From positions 62,001 through 126,000 of the forward strand of contig CALUOK010000001.1 in NCBI GenBank assembly GCA_944322255.1: a DNA stretch of 64,000 nt, written 5' to 3'. This DNA comes from Candidatus Methanomethylophilaceae archaeon (lineage in GTDB: Archaea > Thermoplasmatota > Thermoplasmata > Methanomassiliicoccales > Methanomethylophilaceae). The stretch's first letter is position 1, and each line of letters opens with the position of its first letter. The notes under the pieces were generated by a model. It was not told where the DNA came from. It did no database searches and saw only the letters and a list, made by a program, of their open reading frames with translations. Shown here one piece after another: positions 4,358-61,600 of the stretch. A program made the position numbers and the translations under genes.

Positions 4358-5540
<1,183 letters not shown>

Positions 5541-49180: not shown

Positions 49181-52100
49181 TCAGTCCTTCCTGTAGAGTA
49201 CGATCAGGAACACCGCCATGAGTGCGGCCACGACGGCTGCAGCGGCGCAGGCAACGATGGTCACGGTGTCGTCTCCGGAGGAGGACGATCCTGATCCTCC
49301 GGGCCCGATTATCGGGGGCAGAGGGCTGTCATCATCATCGTCTACGAACGGGTCGTCGGATCCCCCTCCCTGCGACGGGATAGTTCCAAGCACCCAGTCC
49401 ACGTAGAACGGGGTGTTGTGATCCGTGGTGATGATGATGCTGCTACCGGACACCGTAGCGTTCTCCTCCTGCTCTTCATTGTTCACGACGGAGTACACGG
49501 TGACGGACTCGATCCTCTGGTCGGCGTCCAGGTCCACAGGTATGGTGATGGTCACGGAGCCGGCTCTATCAGAGGCGATTCCGGTCAGGATGAGGTTGAA
49601 CGCGAAGTCGTTGCCCTTGAGGTCCGCGAGCTCCATGAACGCAACGGTCACATCTCTGGTCACATCACCAGTGACGGTCACCTCTCCTTTGGGGAATCCT
49701 ACGGTGACGGTAACGTCGCTGTATGTTGGCCCGGGAGAGGCGGGGATGGTAACGGAAACTCCGTCCGTCTTGACGTTGACGGAATCCCCGTCGGAATCGA
49801 TGATGATGCCGGTCGGGGTATCGGATTCGATCGCCCCATAGGTGCCGTCCCCGTTGGGGACGACGGCGAAACCCTTGGCTGCGAACTCGGACACGTTGGT
49901 GTTGAAACTTCCTCCGCTGATGACGTCCTTATCGGTTGCTTCGGTGATCTTGACGGCATCCTTCTGTTCGGTCCCATCGGTACCGCCAGTGAAGATTCCG
50001 TTGTTGACGGATATTGTGGCTGCACTCTTTTCGGCCGCTGGCGCACCGTCCTTCATGGATATACCCTCGTACAGGGCGTATCCATTGTCGCTGATGAACG
50101 TTCCTCCTTTGATCGTCACGGATGTCTTCTGGGGGTAGGCATCGTTTGTGGTGATGCTGACGGCGGCCCCGGTGTCCTCGGAACCGTTGTTGTTGGCAAC
50201 AGGCGGATCGGCGAACTCGCCGGTGGCGTGGAACGTTCCTCCGTTGATCACGAAGGTACCGCTCTTGATGCTGAGCATCTCGGTGTAGGTGAAGTTCCCG
50301 CCGTCGATGGTCCATTCGCCGTATCCAGCCGCGTAGAACATTCCGTTCACCGGCTTGGAATCGTCCATGTCTATGTGAATCTCGGGCACGTTGCCGGTTG
50401 TCGGGGTGACGTTGCCGTTGATGTAGAACAATGATCCGAAGTCTCCTGTGAACGTTCCGTAGAAGTCCACTTCGACGCCGTAGGCGACGTACTTGTCCAG
50501 GTTGTTGTCCTTATAGTCCACATGGCCTATGCAGACCCCGTAGGCCACCACGGTCTGCGTTCCCTGATACAGGAACGTGACGTCGCTGCTCACCTCGAGG
50601 GTGGAGTATCCGGCGACATCGGTCTCGCTTCCGCGGATCCAGATGTAGGCGGGGATGGCTGAGAACTCCGTCGATTTGTCGTTGGCGATGGTGCAGTTCT
50701 CCAGAGAGAGGGAGCCGCCTTCGATCAGGATGGGGCGTATCCCCTTGAAGGACACCGTTCCGCCGCCGTTGATGTTCAGGTCGCCGCTCACTGCGAACTG
50801 TACCTCGTCTCCGAGGGCGAGGATCTTCCCGTTCAGGTTGAGGGTGGCTCTGCCGTGGAAGGTGTAGCCCTCGTCGATGGAGGCATTATCTGCGACAAGG
50901 GTCACGGTTTCGCCGTTGGCGTTGTCCAGGGCCGCTTCAATAGTGGGATAGTTGATGTCGTTGACGGTGGCCTCGTATGTCTGGCCGCTGTAGCTGGGCG
51001 TCCAGGACTCTCCTACATGGGCCATGGTGTAGTCGGCGGCGAGATATCCGGAGTTGATTTTTTTGCTGAACGTTCCTCCAGAGACCTTGATTCCGGAAAT
51101 GGCAGGAGCTACGTCCCCAAACTGATCGGATCCAGGACCGGATACAGACTGAATCTCCGCATCGATGTTCCCGCCTGTGATGTTAACTTTGATGGTCTTA
51201 TCGGTGGTCGCAGTACCATCTGCGTCGTGGTATATCCATGAGCGTATCTGTCCCTTGATGGTACCGCCGGAAATGGTCGTAACAGGATTGTATTCTTCCG
51301 TATCTCCGACCTCTACTATCGTAGTCAGGTTTCCCGAGATGGTGCCCCCGGTGATCGAGACGTTCCCGTAGTTCTGAATCGACTGGTTTCCGCTGGATAT
51401 GGTTCCGCCGGAGATGTTGGCGGTGGCTCCGATGTGCACCCTGACGGCGATGAAGCCTTTCTGGCTCAGCTCCCCTCCCGTCATGTTCATGACAGGCTCG
51501 GAGTTGTTCACGGACTGGTTGATCACCAGGGAGGACAGGTTACCGTTCTGTGTGACGACACCTCCCCTGATGTTGAGAGTGCCGCAGTTATAGACGACAT
51601 ACCATGAGTTACCGCCATTGTTGCTGGGCGAGATGCTGGCCTCGGCGGAGCGTGTAAGCTTACCGGAGAGCAGGGTGAAGTTGCCGGTGTTGTAGATTGC
51701 GGCCTTTCCGTGGGATTTGTTGTCAACCACTCCGGTTCCGACGGAGTCCTGGATGGTCAGGACGCCGTTGTTGGTGATGGTGTGGTTCCTCAGGGAGGTA
51801 TCGACCTTGTCGTTCTGTGCAACTGCGGAGTTCTGGATTGTGTGTCCGTTCAGCTCGATTGTGATGACCTTTCCAGAGGGGACCGTGACCGCTTCAGTCA
51901 CATCATCGAGCAGAGTGATTGTGGACTTGTTTTCAGCAGCGTCTATTGCAGCCTGGAGCGTGGTGTATGATATGGTCGTGCCGTCAGCCGTAGTCAAGGT
52001 TGCAACAGCGGAGACCCATTGTGATTTTTCAGAATCCCACTGGTAGGTTCCTGCCTTGAGATAGTCGTTTCCGATTGTTATACGGATTGACGAGGTGGCG

Positions 52101-53908
52101 TCGGTTCCCTTTATTTCGCCATTGTATTCACGATAGTGTCCATCCTTGTCTATACGGTAATCAGCAATGACGGCATAGTCCATAACCACTGTCTGGTTTC
52201 CACCGATTACTACCTCTCCAGTGACAATGTTGTCTCCGCTATTCTCGTACACCATGCTGTCTATGGTCTCATAACCGTTGTATGCTCCAGCGTATAGGGT
52301 TCCGATTGAGGACTCGGAGTCCGCGTTAAGTGTGATGGCATCTATGACGCTCTGGATGCCGGCAAGATGTGTGCTCTTCAGAGTGATGATCGGATTGCTG
52401 TTATCTCCGTTGCCGTCCACGACCATCCAGTCCAGGATGTTGTCTGCGTGACAGCCGATGAGAGTGATCGATTCGCCGATCCTGCATTCGGCGATCATCT
52501 CATAGGAACCGAAGTCTCCCATGTTGGATATGGTCAGATTGATCGAAGCCTCGATGAGTCCGATCACAGCTCCGCTGAGGTTACCTGCATAGGTGTTGTC
52601 GTTGATGACCACATCCTCGTTTCCCACAGTCATGCCGATGGTGTCGTCTGTAGAGACTCCATTGATGGTCACCGTAGGTTTCTCGCCGATGCTGGCGACG
52701 ATTCCTCCAGCGACCGGCTTGACGGTGGATGTCGCGTTCAGAGATGTCTTCCCTATGGTGCCTCCCTCGACATCAAGGGCGGCTCCGAGGAACGAACCGA
52801 TGAATCCTCCTGCACAGTTGATGCCGGTGATGGTTGAGTCATGGACATCACAGTCTGAGATGTCGATATCACCTCCGGTGGACTGGCTTCCGCCAAGGAT
52901 TCCTCCGGAGCTGTTGGCTCCTGAGATGGTACCTGAGTACTCGCAACCAGTGAATTCTATAGATGATCCCACACCTGCTATTCCTCCGGCATATGTGGTT
53001 CCAGTGATCTGTCCTGTGGATGTGCAGTTCTCGATGACCTTGGAACCATCGCCGGAGTATCCGAGGATTCCTCCTGCAAATTCTGCGGAAACAGTACCGC
53101 TGCTGGTGCAGTTCGTCAGTGTCGATGCGCTGGTGTTCAACGAGACGATCCCGATGATGCCTCCAGCCTTTCCACCATTCTCCAATGTGGCTGTCACAGG
53201 GACATTGCTGATGCATTTCTGTATTGTGATCGATGCACCGTAGGAGCGTGCCACGATTCCTCCGACTGCATCGTATCCTTTGACATTCCCGGATTCAATG
53301 GTTATGTCAGAGACCTTGGAGTCTCCCTGGGAGTATGCGACGGCGACACCGACCGAATCCGCGACGTACTTGTAGCCGTCTTTCTCAGAAACTTCGAAGA
53401 CCAGTTCTGCGTTGGTGAACTTCAGGCCGGAGATCTCTGCGTTATAGATGTATCCGAAGAATCCGAATAAGTACTCCATCAGTTTCTCTGTCGAATTATC
53501 CTCCAGTGAATCATCAGAGGGTGTGTATCTTTCGGATGAGAGTCCGTTGATCGTGTGACCGTTTCCGATGAACTTGCCGGCGAATGCCGCAATCTCAGTC
53601 GAATAGTCGACTCTGGGGGCATCCCCGATGGGTGTCCATGCACGGCCAGAGAGGTCGATGTCGGAGTCGAGGATTATCGTCTTTCCGGAGAGCTGGTTCC
53701 CCTCGTTGACGATATTGGCTAGACCGGCCAGTTCCTCGGCGGTTTTCAATGTGAATTCTGTACTGGTGTCATTATACCAGCTTGTGTCGGCCGTTCCGTC
53801 CCAGGTGTCCGTAGCTGCGTCAGCGTCGCCGGACATCATCGGTACGGCGAAGACCGCCACCATTATGGCGACCGCTGCGATGACGGTCGCTTTGCTGATG
53901 TTGTTCAT
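49181..53908 (-). CDS. Surface protein A: secreted, anchored beta-helix/adhesin-like protein
   Basis: 1575 residues from the ATG at 53908, which has GGAGGAATC directly upstream. Signal peptide about 1-31 (MNNISKATVIAAVAIMVAVF, cleavage near ADA). About residues 180-440 contain GLUG-type repeats (AGGILGYSGDGSKVIENCTSTG, AGGIAGVGSSIEFTGCEYSGT, described), then several parallel beta-helix blocks of the type ISGGTIS/ITGGTISG. The C-terminal end has an acidic Gly/Ser linker and the membrane segment VTIVACAAAAVVAALMAVFLIVLYRKD. Probably a cell-surface adhesin. An in-frame reading extends upstream through the poly-G tract but is unlikely to be used. It follows wHTH gene B. Confidence 0.85.
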   Translation of the reverse strand: MNNISKATVIAAVAIMVAVFAVPMMSGDADAATDTWDGTADTSWYNDTSTEFTLKTAEELAGLANIVNEGNQLSGKTIILDSDIDLSGRAWTPIGDAPRVDYSTEIAAFAGKFIGNGHTINGLSSERYTPSDDSLEDNSTEKLMEYLFGFFGYIYNAEISGLKFTNAELVFEVSEKDGYKYVADSVGVAVAYSQGDSKVSDITIESGNVKGYDAVGGIVARSYGASITIQKCISNVPVTATLENGGKAGGIIGIVSLNTSASTLTNCTSSGTVSAEFAGGILGYSGDGSKVIENCTSTGQITGTTYAGGIAGVGSSIEFTGCEYSGTISGANSSGGILGGSQSTGGDIDISDCDVHDSTITGINCAGGFIGSFLGAALDVEGGTIGKTSLNATSTVKPVAGGIVASIGEKPTVTINGVSTDDTIGMTVGNEDVVINDNTYAGNLSGAVIGLIEASINLTISNMGDFGSYEMIAECRIGESITLIGCHADNILDWMVVDGNGDNSNPIITLKSTHLAGIQSVIDAITLNADSESSIGTLYAGAYNGYETIDSMVYENSGDNIVTGEVVIGGNQTVVMDYAVIADYRIDKDGHYREYNGEIKGTDATSSIRITIGNDYLKAGTYQWDSEKSQWVSAVATLTTADGTTISYTTLQAAIDAAENKSTITLLDDVTEAVTVPSGKVITIELNGHTIQNSAVAQNDKVDTSLRNHTITNNGVLTIQDSVGTGVVDNKSHGKAAIYNTGNFTLLSGKLTRSAEASISPSNNGGNSWYVVYNCGTLNIRGGVVTQNGNLSSLVINQSVNNSEPVMNMTGGELSQKGFIAVRVHIGATANISGGTISSGNQSIQNYGNVSITGGTISGNLTTIVEVGDTEEYNPVTTISGGTIKGQIRSWIYHDADGTATTDKTIKVNITGGNIDAEIQSVSGPGSDQFGDVAPAISGIKVSGGTFSKKINSGYLAADYTMAHVGESWTPSYSGQTYEATVNDINYPTIEAALDNANGETVTLVADNASIDEGYTFHGRATLNLNGKILALGDEVQFAVSGDLNINGGGTVSFKGIRPILIEGGSLSLENCTIANDKSTEFSAIPAYIWIRGSETDVAGYSTLEVSSDVTFLYQGTQTVVAYGVCIGHVDYKDNNLDKYVAYGVEVDFYGTFTGDFGSLFYINGNVTPTTGNVPEIHIDMDDSKPVNGMFYAAGYGEWTIDGGNFTYTEMLSIKSGTFVINGGTFHATGEFADPPVANNNGSEDTGAAVSITTNDAYPQKTSVTIKGGTFISDNGYALYEGISMKDGAPAAEKSAATISVNNGIFTGGTDGTEQKDAVKITEATDKDVISGGSFNTNVSEFAAKGFAVVPNGDGTYGAIESDTPTGIIIDSDGDSVNVKTDGVSVTIPASPGPTYSDVTVTVGFPKGEVTVTGDVTRDVTVAFMELADLKGNDFAFNLILTGIASDRAGSVTITIPVDLDADQRIESVTVYSVVNNEEQEENATVSGSSIIITTDHNTPFYVDWVLGTIPSQGGGSDDPFVDDDDDSPLPPIIGPGGSGSSSSGDDTVTIVACAAAAVVAALMAVFLIVLYRKD

Positions 53909-54008
53909 GATTCCTCCGAACGGAGGGCAGAGAGAGAAGCAGAATGTTTCGCCCCCCCCCCGCAGCATTTCGCTAGAAGATGAATGGACTGCGCAGCTTA
54001 TAATAAGA
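53909..54008 (-). promoter_or_regulatory. Promoter and poly-G leader of surface gene A
   Basis: Minus-strand TATA CTTATTATAAG (53996-54008) predicts a start near 53976. A run of ten G (53952-53961) begins about 15 nt later, in the context AGCGAAATGCTGC-G10-CGAAAC. Just before the gene, CCTCC/GGAGG (53913-53926, loop GTTC) forms a hairpin that contains the ribosome-binding GGAGG. Leader length is about 68 nt. Confidence 0.7.
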
Positions 54009-56618: not shown

Positions 56619-56690
56619 TTCTCCCTCGCTAGAAGGGGGGGGGGGGGACGAAACTCAGAATCCCCTCCCCCACTCATCAGATTTAAGTTC
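56619..56690 (-). promoter_or_regulatory. Promoter and poly-C leader of surface gene B
   Basis: Minus-strand TATA GAACTTAAATC (about 56680-56690) predicts a start near 56659. A run of 13 C on the minus strand (56635-56647) begins about 12 nt later, then TTCTAGCGAGGGAG and the ATG at 56618. The tract has the opposite base sense to those of A and C but the same position. The remaining 302-bp gap to 56920 holds only the terminator of regulator C. Confidence 0.65.
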
Positions 56691-56920: not shown

Positions 56921-57214
56921 TCATTCCGGTGTCCGTGACGCCATCATCGAGTCGATCCCGGCGAGCAGGTCCGTTACGGACCTCCCCAGGTCGGTGAGAC
57001 CGACCACCTCGGAGATCCCGACCTCGTCCACGGTGACGAGTCCGGCCTCCCTCATGCGGTCGATCTTCGACGGCATGTTGGCGCTCCTGCCGACAGCCGA
57101 GTAGATGACGGTCTTGGTGCTGGGTCCGTTCTGTCCGAGGAACATCAGCATGGGGATGACGTGCGGGTCGCACAGCACCTGTATGGGATGTTCCGTTCCG
57201 TCCATGGCCATCAT
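56921..57214 (-). CDS. Winged-helix regulator C, coupled to surface gene C
   Basis: 97 residues, paralogue of regulator B: HPIQVLCDPHVIPMLMFLGQ, KTVIYSAVGRSANMPSKIDR, EAGLVTVDEVGISEVVGLTD (each described separately). The ATG overlaps the surface gene C stop by 4 bp. An internal ATG at the fourth codon is an alternative start. The conservation of gene order (surface gene, then regulator) in two modules suggests each regulator acts on its own or a sister surface gene. Confidence 0.8.
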   Translation of the reverse strand: MMAMDGTEHPIQVLCDPHVIPMLMFLGQNGPSTKTVIYSAVGRSANMPSKIDRMREAGLVTVDEVGISEVVGLTDLGRSVTDLLAGIDSMMASRTPE

Positions 57215-58347
57215 TCCTTCTTGTAGGAGACGATCAGGAACACGGCCATGAGGGCTGCGACCACGGCGGCCGCGGCGCAGGCCACGATGGTCACGGAGTC
57301 ATCTTCGGAGGACGATGCACCTGGCCTGATCATCGGCGGGAGCTCCTCGTCGTCATCGCTCCATCCGGGCGTTCCGGAATCGTCCGGGTTCTGGTCGGTG
57401 TCATCGACGCTGACTGAGCCGGCAACGAACAGGTCGCCGACGAACGAATTGCTGTTCTTGATGGTCGCCGGGTCCAGTATTTCGGGAGTGATCGTAGGGT
57501 TGAGCTGGCGAATGATGGGTGTGTCGCCAGAGTACTTGTTATCCTCGATGACTATGTCGGAGTTGGTGTAGTTCCCTGCGGCTGAGAACTGGATCAGGCC
57601 GCGCGTGTTCTCCTTTCCAGCTTCGGCGTAGGAGTCCATGTTCGTGAACGTGTTGTTCTGGATCGTTATGTCTCCCTTCTCGTTGTTTCCCTCAAAGTAT
57701 ATCCCTCCGGAGCATTTATCGAAGGAGCATCCTGTGATGCTGGCATTGGGAGAGTATATGTCCTTGAGTGCGTAGGCGTCGTACACGTTGCTGAACTTGC
57801 AGTTGGTGATTGTTGTGGTGTCGGTGCTCCCGTAGGTGCTGACTATGACCTGGTCGAAGGTGCAGTTTACGAATGTGACACTGCCAGTGGTGTTGAACTG
57901 GAGTTCGGCGTTCACAACATTGTTGCCCTTGAACTCTCCTTTCCAGTCACTGTTTATGCACAGCTTGAAATCGCCAGGAACATACACAAAGTTGACGTTG
58001 CTAATAACGACATCGACGCTAGAATTATTGAACAGATGGTACTGGGCGTTGTGTGACTGGCCTCTGTTGGGGGTGTTTCCAGCTCCAGTGGGTTTTGTAT
58101 TCTCCTCATCGAAAAGACAACCTCCTTTGTCCGTTCCATCGCATTTGGATGTGGGAGACCAAGAGACGGTAACTCCGTTTCCATCGTAAGTGTAGTTGTT
58201 TGCTTTCACCGCATCGAAAAACTCTCCGATGTTATCGAAGCCTGTGGTTGTCTCGTCGGCCGCTTCCGCGTAGGGCACGGCCGAGAGCACCAGGACGGCC
58301 GTCAGGATGACGGCGGCCGCTACTGTGATCTTGTGTCCGATCTGCAT
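57211..58347 (-). CDS. Surface protein C: secreted, anchored beta-helix-like protein
   Basis: 378 residues from the ATG at 58347, which has AGGAGGATATC upstream. Signal peptide about 1-34 (MQIGHKITVAAAVILTAVLV, cleavage near AEA). The middle has right-handed beta-helix turns with buried Asn/Thr and Phe ladders (NNSSVDVVISNVNFVYV, GSVTFVNCTFDQVIV, TTITNCKFSNVY, NASITGCSFDKC, DITIQNNTFTN). The C-terminus has ELPPMIRPG and DDSVTIVACAAAAVVAALMAVFLIV, the same anchor as A and B. It overlaps regulator C by 4 bp. Smallest of the set. Confidence 0.83.
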   Translation of the reverse strand: MQIGHKITVAAAVILTAVLVLSAVPYAEAADETTTGFDNIGEFFDAVKANNYTYDGNGVTVSWSPTSKCDGTDKGGCLFDEENTKPTGAGNTPNRGQSHNAQYHLFNNSSVDVVISNVNFVYVPGDFKLCINSDWKGEFKGNNVVNAELQFNTTGSVTFVNCTFDQVIVSTYGSTDTTTITNCKFSNVYDAYALKDIYSPNASITGCSFDKCSGGIYFEGNNEKGDITIQNNTFTNMDSYAEAGKENTRGLIQFSAAGNYTNSDIVIEDNKYSGDTPIIRQLNPTITPEILDPATIKNSNSFVGDLFVAGSVSVDDTDQNPDDSGTPGWSDDDEELPPMIRPGASSSEDDSVTIVACAAAAVVAALMAVFLIVSYKKE

Positions 58348-58460
58348 GATATCCTCCTGTTCCGGAGGGCAGGAGGAGAAACAGAAGAGTCGCCCCCCCC
58401 CCCGCAGCTTTTCGCTACATTGTGATTGAAGTATGAACATTATAATATGAACCTAGGTTG
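58348..58460 (-). promoter_or_regulatory. Promoter and poly-G leader of surface gene C
   Basis: Minus-strand TATA TATTATAA (about 58439-58447) predicts a start near 58417. Eleven G (58393-58403) begin about 14 nt later, in the context TAGCGAAAAGCTGC-G11-CGA. CCTCC/GGAGG (58353-58368, 6-nt loop) encloses the ribosome-binding site. The perfect palindrome AACCTAGGTT (58450-58459) is immediately upstream of the TATA box. The rest of the gap to 58552 shows nothing else. Confidence 0.7.
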
Positions 58461-58694: not shown

Positions 58695-61600
58695 TCAGCT
58701 CCTCATCAGCCTGAGGGCGACCATGATGGCCATGACGACGATCAGGATCACGAGGATGACAAGGAGGATCTCGGTGAGGCCCATTCCGCTGTCGCCGCCG
58801 GAGGTGGATCCGGTGTCGACGGAGATGTCTCCCAGAGCGGAGAGGACGGCTCCCTCGGAGTCCACGGTGATCTCGATGCTTCCGCCGGTGACTGTCTGTC
58901 CGTTGAAGGAGATGGTCACCTCTCCGGCGTAGCCGGGGTTGACGGTGGCGGAGACGGTGTGGGTTCCGATGGTCAGGTCGTAGGTCTCGCTGACGATCTT
59001 GACGTTGTCGACGTACAGCGAGATTCCGGTTCCGACGGAGATCTTGATCTTGATCTGGTCGAGCGGGGCCTTGGCGTAGACGGCACCAGAGGTTCCGATC
59101 ATGAACGCATCGATGTCTGCGATGTCGTTGCCCTCGGCGTCTGTCCAGGTGATGGTCTTGTCCTTGTCCTTGTCGATTCCGGGGATGTTCCTGACCTCAT
59201 CATCACCGATGACATCATTGACGGTGCTGGTTGCAGCGTAGACTGTGGCGTACAGTGCGTCGTTGACGTAGAACGCGGTGGTCTCGAACTCGTTGTTGTC
59301 GGCGCGGGTGGCTCCGGACATGTCGGTTCCGGCGTAGGCGATGATGTGGTCGCCCTTGCCGAAGCTGATGGCTCCGACGATGGATCCGGTGGATCCCATG
59401 GCCTGCTTGACGTCTCCGACGGCGACTCCGGCTCCCTCGACGGTGAAGGTTCCCTCGGAGGTCTCGTCGGCGATGATGTTGACGGTTCCGTTGATCACCA
59501 GAGCGGTGGCGTTGACGTTGGCGCCGTCGTCGATGTTCATGGTTCCGTTGATGACGGGGGCCACTCCGGCGAGGTTGGTGTCGGCCTTCGCGGCATTGAG
59601 GGCTCCGAACTCGACGGTTCCGTTGTCAGTGACGTTCAGGGTTCCGTCCACGACGAAGTCCAGGTTGGTGGTTCCGTTGACGTTCAGGGTTCCGGTGACG
59701 ACCAGGGTGGCTCCGGAGGCGACGGTCAGCTTGGCGTTGGCGTCGGCCGCGGAGGTCACGGCGGGTGTTCCGGTGATCGCGACGGTTCCGGACTGGACGG
59801 TCATGGTTCCGCTGATGGCGTTGATGGCGTAGGTGTAGGTGGTGACACCTGCTGCGCTGGTGACGTTGCTGGAGGCCAGGGCGGCTCCGGAAGCGGACAG
59901 GGTGACGGTTCCGTTGGCGGCAGCGTCTCCCTCGCCGTTCATGGCAGTGACGTTGGCTGTCAGCTTGGCACCGGTGGCGGTGACGGTAGCGTCGTTCAGG
60001 GTGATGTCCCCGAGGACGACCTCGGCGGTGGCGTCGATGACGAGGTTGACTCCGTCGAGGGTGAGGGCTCCGGACTCGGAGACCTTTCCCTTGACGTTGA
60101 CCGCGTCGCCGTCGTTCTCGGTGACGTAGGCGACGGCCTTGGCGACGGTGGTGACGACGGTGTTGCCGTCGGCGTCGAGGTAGTAGGCACCGTTGAAGTT
60201 GGTGGGGGCGACCGCGAAGATGGCGGATCCGGTGGATGTGACGGTGGCGTTGTCAGAGACGTTCAGGGATCCCTCGGACAGGTCCAGGGTTCCGTTGACG
60301 GTGACCCTGCTGTACCTGGTGTCAGACGGGTCGATGACGACGATCTCTCCGCCGGTGAGGGTGGATCCCTCGGCGACGGTCAGGTTGCCGGTGATGGTCA
60401 GGGTCTCGATGACGTTGACGGTGACACCGTTGGGGACGGTCAGTGTGGCGGGGCTGTCGGAGTCTCCGATGGTTCCCTTGGAGACGGTGATGACGTCTCC
60501 GGGCTGGGCCTCGGCGATGGCGACGGCGAATCCGGCGTAGGTGACGGTCAGGTCCTCGGAAGTGGACATGACGTCGTAGTCGGAGGGTGCGGCGCAGGAG
60601 GCTCCGTCCTCGACGACGAGCTTTCCGTCGACCTTTCCGATTCCCATTCCGGTGACGGCTCCCTCGGCCTCGACGGTGACGACGGCGTCGGCGGCGATTC
60701 CAGGGGCCTCGGCGGACACGATGTCCAGGGTCTGGTCGGCGGCGACGGTGACGTTGATGTCGATGGTCGCGACGTTGACGTAGACGGTGTTCTCGTAGGC
60801 GGATCCGATGGCCTCCATGGCGGCGGCCAGGGTGGTGTAGTATCCGGTGTAGGTCTCGGTGTTGTTCTCGCCGGTGACGACGGTCTCGTAGGCGGCGCCT
60901 GTGTAGACGATGGCCTCTGCGGGCGTGGATTCGCCCTGGGCAGCATCGCGGAGTCCGTCCTCTGTGACGATGGTTCCCTGTACGACGACGTTGTCCATGT
61001 TGACGAAGACGTCCTCGGTGATGGTCAGGGTCTCGCCGGAGGCGATGTACACCTCACCCTCGGTCTTGAAGATGCAGTTTGTTCCAGCCTGAACAGGTGC
61101 GACGTCGGTGTTGAGTGTCGCGGTTCCGTTGACGTAGGCCCTGAGGAAGTACTCGGTGTCCTCACTGTCGGCGACAGTGACCCTCTTGGTGTAGATGGTG
61201 ACGCCCTTGATGTTGGAAATGGTGAATGTGGGAGAATCCTCGCTGGGGCTGAACGCACCGTTCCTGCCGTCGTAGGTTCCGGTGAGAGCAGTGACGGTGA
61301 CGGTGTCGATGGCTCCGTTGGATGTGAAGGTGGAACCCTCGTTGAGAACGAAGCTGGTTCCCTTCATTGTTCCGTTGATCGTGACGGTGGCGTTCTTGAC
61401 TGTATCGGTGCTGGTACCGACGTCGAGGGTGACGTTTCTTCCGATGACGAGCTCGCTGCCGATTCCGGCTCCACTTAGCGTGATGGTGCTGGCGGCGGGT
61501 CCGGAGACGGCCCTGACATCACCGCTGATGACGAGGACCTGCTCATCATCGAAGGTGGCGTATCCGAAGCTAACTCCGGAGACTCCGACGATCTCTACTT

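Follow-up and report, generated by a model that had tools for sequence, protein, structure and literature searches.

Does the length of a G tract upstream of a gene decide whether the ribosome can reach that gene? The question is raised by two genes, here called A and C, in a 64,000-nucleotide stretch of contig CALUOK010000001.1 (positions 62,001 to 126,000 of the forward strand, GenBank assembly GCA_944322255.1) from a Methanomethylophilaceae archaeon, below referred to as the window. Both are preceded by a G tract and by a Shine-Dalgarno (SD) sequence that can pair with an upstream anti-SD. With 14 nt of 5' context, the SD is predicted to be shut at G11 in nearly all leaders of this type (open probability 0.00–0.07) and to open at G12–G14; lengthening the run by some two bases appears to suffice. 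We favour, with moderate confidence, the reading that these leaders act in cis as RNA switches through which surface proteins of this group of uncultured methanogens undergo phase variation.

Leaders of genes A and C and their relatives

On the minus strand both leaders have the same order of elements, namely a G10 or G11 tract, a spacer of about 12 nt, an 11-nt pyrimidine run, GC, CCTCC, a loop, GGAGG and ATG. The original prediction placed the pairing of CCTCC with GGAGG at 53913–53926 in A and 58353–58368 in C, with different loops, and these coordinates are correct; the pyrimidine-rich stretch that it noted upstream of the anti-SD in both genes is read as the two buffers listed here.

Gene A
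53998..54003, minus strand, TATA-like box, 36 nt upstream of the tract
53962..53963, minus strand, anchor GC just 5' of the G tract, predicted to pair with the GC at 53927-53928 in the shut state
53952..53961, minus strand, G10 tract, read from the sequence
53929..53939, minus strand, pyrimidine buffer CTTCTCTCTCT, partner of the G tract in the predicted shut fold
53927..53928, minus strand, GC between buffer and anti-SD (register stop), predicted partner of the anchor
53922..53926, minus strand, anti-SD CCTCC, from sequence and folding
53918-53921, minus strand, loop GTTC, from sequence
53913..53917, minus strand, SD GGAGG, from sequence
53906-53908, minus strand, ATG, from sequence
49181..53908, minus strand, gene A, surface protein of 1575 aa with a signal-like N-terminus and a C-terminal hydrophobic segment

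Gene C
58440..58445, minus strand, TATA-like box, 36 nt upstream of the tract
58404..58405, minus strand, anchor GC, from the pairing comparison
58393..58403, minus strand, G11 tract, from sequence
58371..58381, minus strand, pyrimidine buffer TTTCTCCTCCT, from sequence and folding
58364..58368, minus strand, anti-SD CCTCC, from sequence
between SD and anti-SD, minus strand, loop GGAACA, from sequence
58353..58357, minus strand, SD GGAGG, from sequence
58345-58347, minus strand, ATG, from sequence
57211..58347, minus strand, gene C, surface protein of 378 aa with a signal-like N-terminus and a C-terminal hydrophobic segment

The gene A protein has no match in Pfam, and the Rfam covariance models gave no leader or riboswitch match at the gathering score. 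Transcription of gene A should start about 12–14 nt upstream of the tract. A TATA-like signal peaks 35–44 nt upstream of the tract, and by archaeal promoter geometry the start sites are expected about 12–22 nt upstream of it, on the side of the tract that the original prediction needed.

The window belongs to a genome of 1.88 Mb in 31 contigs, in which pattern searches found 18 G or C tracts of at least 9 nt. Eight of these are located 43–47 nt before an ATG, all with the layout given above and all in front of a protein with a signal-like N-terminus (assessed by eye, not with a predictor). The eight leaders in this genome with the order G tract, GGAGG, ATG all have CCTCC 3–8 nt before the SD, while the genome-wide background is 57 CYTCC-loop-GGAGG-ATG sites against 1335 GGAGG-N4-9-ATG sites, about 4%, an approximate figure as the gap ranges differ slightly. 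The anti-SD thus exceeds chance, in leaders that are partly homologous and not independent of each other.

A pattern blind to the anti-SD (G tract, GGAGG, ATG) was then run over 31 genomes of the genus, one per species, and gave eight leaders in the genome of the window, four each in G053 and G075, five in G076 and two in G051, as well as two matches that have no long reading frame. Matches not followed by such a frame or not showing the layout were dropped (in G055, G057, G035, G037, G044 and G056), and a reversed control pattern in the same kind of search gave zero matches. All but one of the genus leaders (22 of 23) have CCTCC or CTTCC 3–9 nt before the SD. A leader with the same layout (L136) precedes a 1131-aa protein in G093, a genome of another genus, which brings the total to 24 leaders in six species and two genera, 23 of them with the anti-SD; besides the species of the window these are four of the same genus and one of the other. 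The hairpin is thus conserved as originally proposed, with the same layout across genes and species.

The 24 leaders carry tracts of G9–G14, 35–52 nt before the start codon, with native lengths mostly G10–G12 and a peak at 11; several of the genomes are metagenome-assembled genomes (MAGs), so the tract lengths there are consensus calls. Nearly all the products are large proteins with signal-like N-termini. The pyrimidine stretch is usually 8–12 nt long and is followed by one or two register bases, the anti-SD, the loop and the SD. Positions -8 to -4 before the anti-SD are 95–100% pyrimidine and the loops vary freely, but the anti-SD varies only between CCTCC and CTTCC, so that pairing with the SD is always possible. 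The distribution is patchy, most other species of the genus being devoid of the leader, and when 85,000 species and viral contigs were scanned, matches were confined to Methanomethylophilaceae apart from apparent chance ones in GC-rich DNA, the named matches being Methanomethylophilaceae MAGs.

In G075 two G-tract leaders lie back to back on divergent genes (L095, about 4488–4750), and the frame on the minus strand runs for 94 aa to a stop. A phage-like gene on viral contig L166 (IMGVR_UViG_3300006139_000036) is preceded by G11, a pyrimidine-rich stretch, CCCTCC, GAGGAGG and ATG, which is either chance or a similar layout.

Folding as a function of tract length

The probability that the SD is open was scored against the number of Gs in the tract. 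In most leaders the SD is 0.3–0.9 open at G13–14 or more, and at their native lengths A and C have an open probability of about 0.003. In the shut fold the G tract is paired to the pyrimidine run and adjoins the anti-SD–SD hairpin; in the open fold, at G13 or more, the pairing of the Gs continues across the lone register purine, a mismatch, into the anti-SD. The original prediction was that a G10–G11 run could pair with the pyrimidine stretch or with the anti-SD and so free the SD, and that longer or shorter runs would shift the balance. The hairpin does respond to tract length in silico and longer runs open the SD, but a run of G10–G11 leaves it shut, as do shorter ones. The two proposed partners also differ in effect: pairing with the anti-SD frees the SD for longer runs, first at G12–G13, while pairing with the pyrimidine stretch keeps it shut.

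From G11 to G14 the opening of the SD changes by a mean of 0.52 in 22 leaders, as compared with 0.07 when the spacers are shuffled and 0.08 when they are random, and tracts of A, C or U of equal length have no effect. With random spacers the SD is partly open already at G11 (means 0.15–0.63), indicating that the threshold is set by the pyrimidine run acting as a buffer. The anchor (two bases, 5' of the tract) can pair with the register (two bases that follow the pyrimidine run) in 42 of 46 cells, compared with 10–25 in a shifted register, and the combinations include GC/GC, GC/GU, AC/GU, AU/AU and similar ones.

At native length the SD is predicted to be paired with the anti-SD in most leaders (open probability below 0.1 in 20 of the 23 folded), many of them being 1–3 Gs short of opening, and three of the 23 are predicted to be open. 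Two neighbouring surface genes in G076 (L096:540 and L096:3385) have identical 27-nt spacers but tracts of G11 and G12, and are predicted to be shut (0.007) and half open (0.51) respectively. These predicted natural states fit a repertoire that is mostly off with a few members on.

The length switch is kept with 5' contexts of 8–24 nt and 3' contexts of 12–30 nt in 13–19 of the 23 leaders. Several results weigh against it. When 40 nt of further sequence are added upstream, the swing becomes smaller or disappears in several leaders; the short 5' contexts should be the realistic ones, since the expected start sites lie so close to the tract. Leaders L091:9090, L099:527 and L104:764 and the leader from the other genus switch uncleanly or need more Gs, and most leaders are related and are therefore not independent tests. 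The covariation of the anchor is weak by permutation (p = 0.07), because the variation in anchor and register is limited. Finally, when G-quadruplexes were allowed (ViennaRNA, four leaders) the SD was paired at every length tested, and the alternative pairing that frees it, seen with standard parameters at G13 or more, is absent once stable quadruplexes are permitted.

Proposed switch and rival explanations

In the proposed mechanism a tract of G11 or fewer would be absorbed by the pyrimidine stretch, an anchor pair would close off this pairing and the anti-SD–SD hairpin would stay shut. At about G12–G13 the surplus Gs would extend beyond the register base, engage the anti-SD and set the SD free. 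Replication slippage would alter the tract by 1–3 Gs, and each gene might therefore alternate, in a heritable way, between a weakly and a strongly translated state. The majority of natural tracts lie just short of the predicted threshold.

Five coding G tracts are present in the same genome, four of them out of frame. Three are in DNA methyltransferase genes on contigs C1 and C2 (L038:4009-4020, L040:4003-4013 and L040:6993-7002; G10–G12), of which a ParB-like/N6_N4 methyltransferase (G12) and a second N6_N4 methyltransferase (G10) are out of frame and a C5 methyltransferase (G11) is in frame. The other two, in surface genes (L043:6524-6534, G11, and L043:8806-8814, G9), are located in or next to the region coding for the signal peptide and are out of frame at present. 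Phase-variable methylation is thus possible in this archaeon, and as both methyltransferase and surface genes have coding G tracts, slippage at such tracts is plausibly used by the organism. The wider proposal, which we hold to be evenly poised between right and wrong, is that gut-type methanogenic archaea have a contingency-locus repertoire built on a length-counting RNA switch, where a set number of Gs is taken up by the buffer and every G beyond it helps to open the SD, so that slippage selects surface proteins in a genome that also has G-tract-controlled DNA methyltransferases.

The tract could instead be phase variable through transcription or mRNA stability, as part of the initially transcribed region, by polymerase slippage or through access of RNases, with the SD hairpin as a separate and constant brake. 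Its position only about 12–22 nt past the expected start site agrees with this, and promoter-near poly-G tracts govern transcription in several bacteria, but the pyrimidine stretch directly before the anti-SD and a switch that is controlled by base composition would be left unexplained, and we regard this alternative as unlikely. A slightly smaller chance is given to the tract being a G-quadruplex with a blocking or tuning effect on initiation or decay and no switching of the SD. Eleven Gs is the minimum for two tetrads and native lengths peak there, and the best ViennaRNA fold contains a quadruplex from G11–G12 on with the SD still paired; two-tetrad RNA quadruplexes are, however, marginal, several native tracts have just 9–10 Gs, and the conserved pyrimidine stretch would be unneeded and would compete. 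The predicted closed state of most leaders at their native lengths would also be expected of a static brake lowering the translation of surface proteins, with the G tract as a functionless by-product of leader duplication. This appears improbable given that tracts of 9–14 Gs persist in 24 leaders from six species and that the pairing of tract and pyrimidines is maintained across diverged spacers.

Two further explanations carry still less weight. A trans-acting small RNA (sRNA) with a C/U-rich loop might bind the tract, as RepG does on Helicobacter pylori tlpB, where the mechanism is closely comparable and has a length threshold (PMC8295292), but here the tract is already occupied by the pyrimidine stretch in cis and we consider it very improbable. 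Frameshift phase variation, with a start upstream of a coding tract, is suggested by an upstream ATG in gene A that shares the reading frame of the gene when the tract is G10. This ATG is missing from most other leaders and the expected start sites leave no space for an upstream SD; the candidate start was rejected as not conserved, and the chance that this explanation holds is close to nil.

Gene B in the window has a C13 run (mRNA sense) at 56635–56647, lying 16 nt ahead of its ATG and preceded by a G-rich stretch, and the flanking pieces TTCTAGCGA and CGAAAC are similar to segments of the leader of gene A, in changed order. It was tried as a mirror-image switch and rejected: the fold barely depends on C length near the native one, and no consistent class emerged from a search across the genus. 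In the repetitive gene D (60082–60187) there are sub-threshold matches to plant-type microRNA models, most likely by chance from the repeats.

Comparison with known systems

Phase variation has been described mainly for bacteria, and in a review from 2025 archaea appear only as a target for future surveys (PMC11868660). The working principle of the leaders is known, but our literature search found no archaeal example of such a switch, and the literature searched yielded no multi-gene archaeal module that combines a pyrimidine buffer with register bases and an anti-SD. If the reading favoured here is true, the archaea with these leaders reshuffle their surface by translational switches driven by mutation, with bearing on how gut methanogens are recognized by host, phages and neighbours, and the tract lengths assembled in such genomes may be functional states rather than noise. 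The design of the switch is compact.

A close relative is espR of Mycobacterium tuberculosis, where one extra G in a 5' untranslated region (UTR) homopolymer lengthens a G/C hairpin and lowers the predicted pairing of the ribosome site, and in a reporter raises translation with unchanged mRNA (PMC11898584). In both cases the length of a 5' UTR poly-G run is predicted to change the pairing of the ribosome site, but espR is a single bacterial regulator gene for which no repeated anti-SD hairpin with pyrimidine buffer is described, while the present leaders belong to many surface genes of an archaeon. In H. pylori tlpB-hp0102, like espR a single-gene precedent backed by experiment, a variable 5' UTR G-repeat binds RepG, with repression at 7–12 Gs and activation at 14 or more (PMC8295292). 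A G-repeat with a C/U-rich partner is found here too and an outcome dependent on length is predicted, but the partner of tlpB is an sRNA in trans and its repeat is far from the SD, whereas the present leaders carry both the C/U-rich partner and the anti-SD in cis. Bacterial frameshift contingency loci (for example phase-variable methyltransferases and adhesins) share the slippage-prone homopolymer tracts, and this genome has coding ones as well, but the leader tract is noncoding and would act on access to the ribosome site. With SD-sequestering riboswitches and RNA thermometers the leaders have in common an anti-SD–SD hairpin, which here too would be opened by a rival pairing, though the input would be an inherited tract length and not a ligand or temperature.
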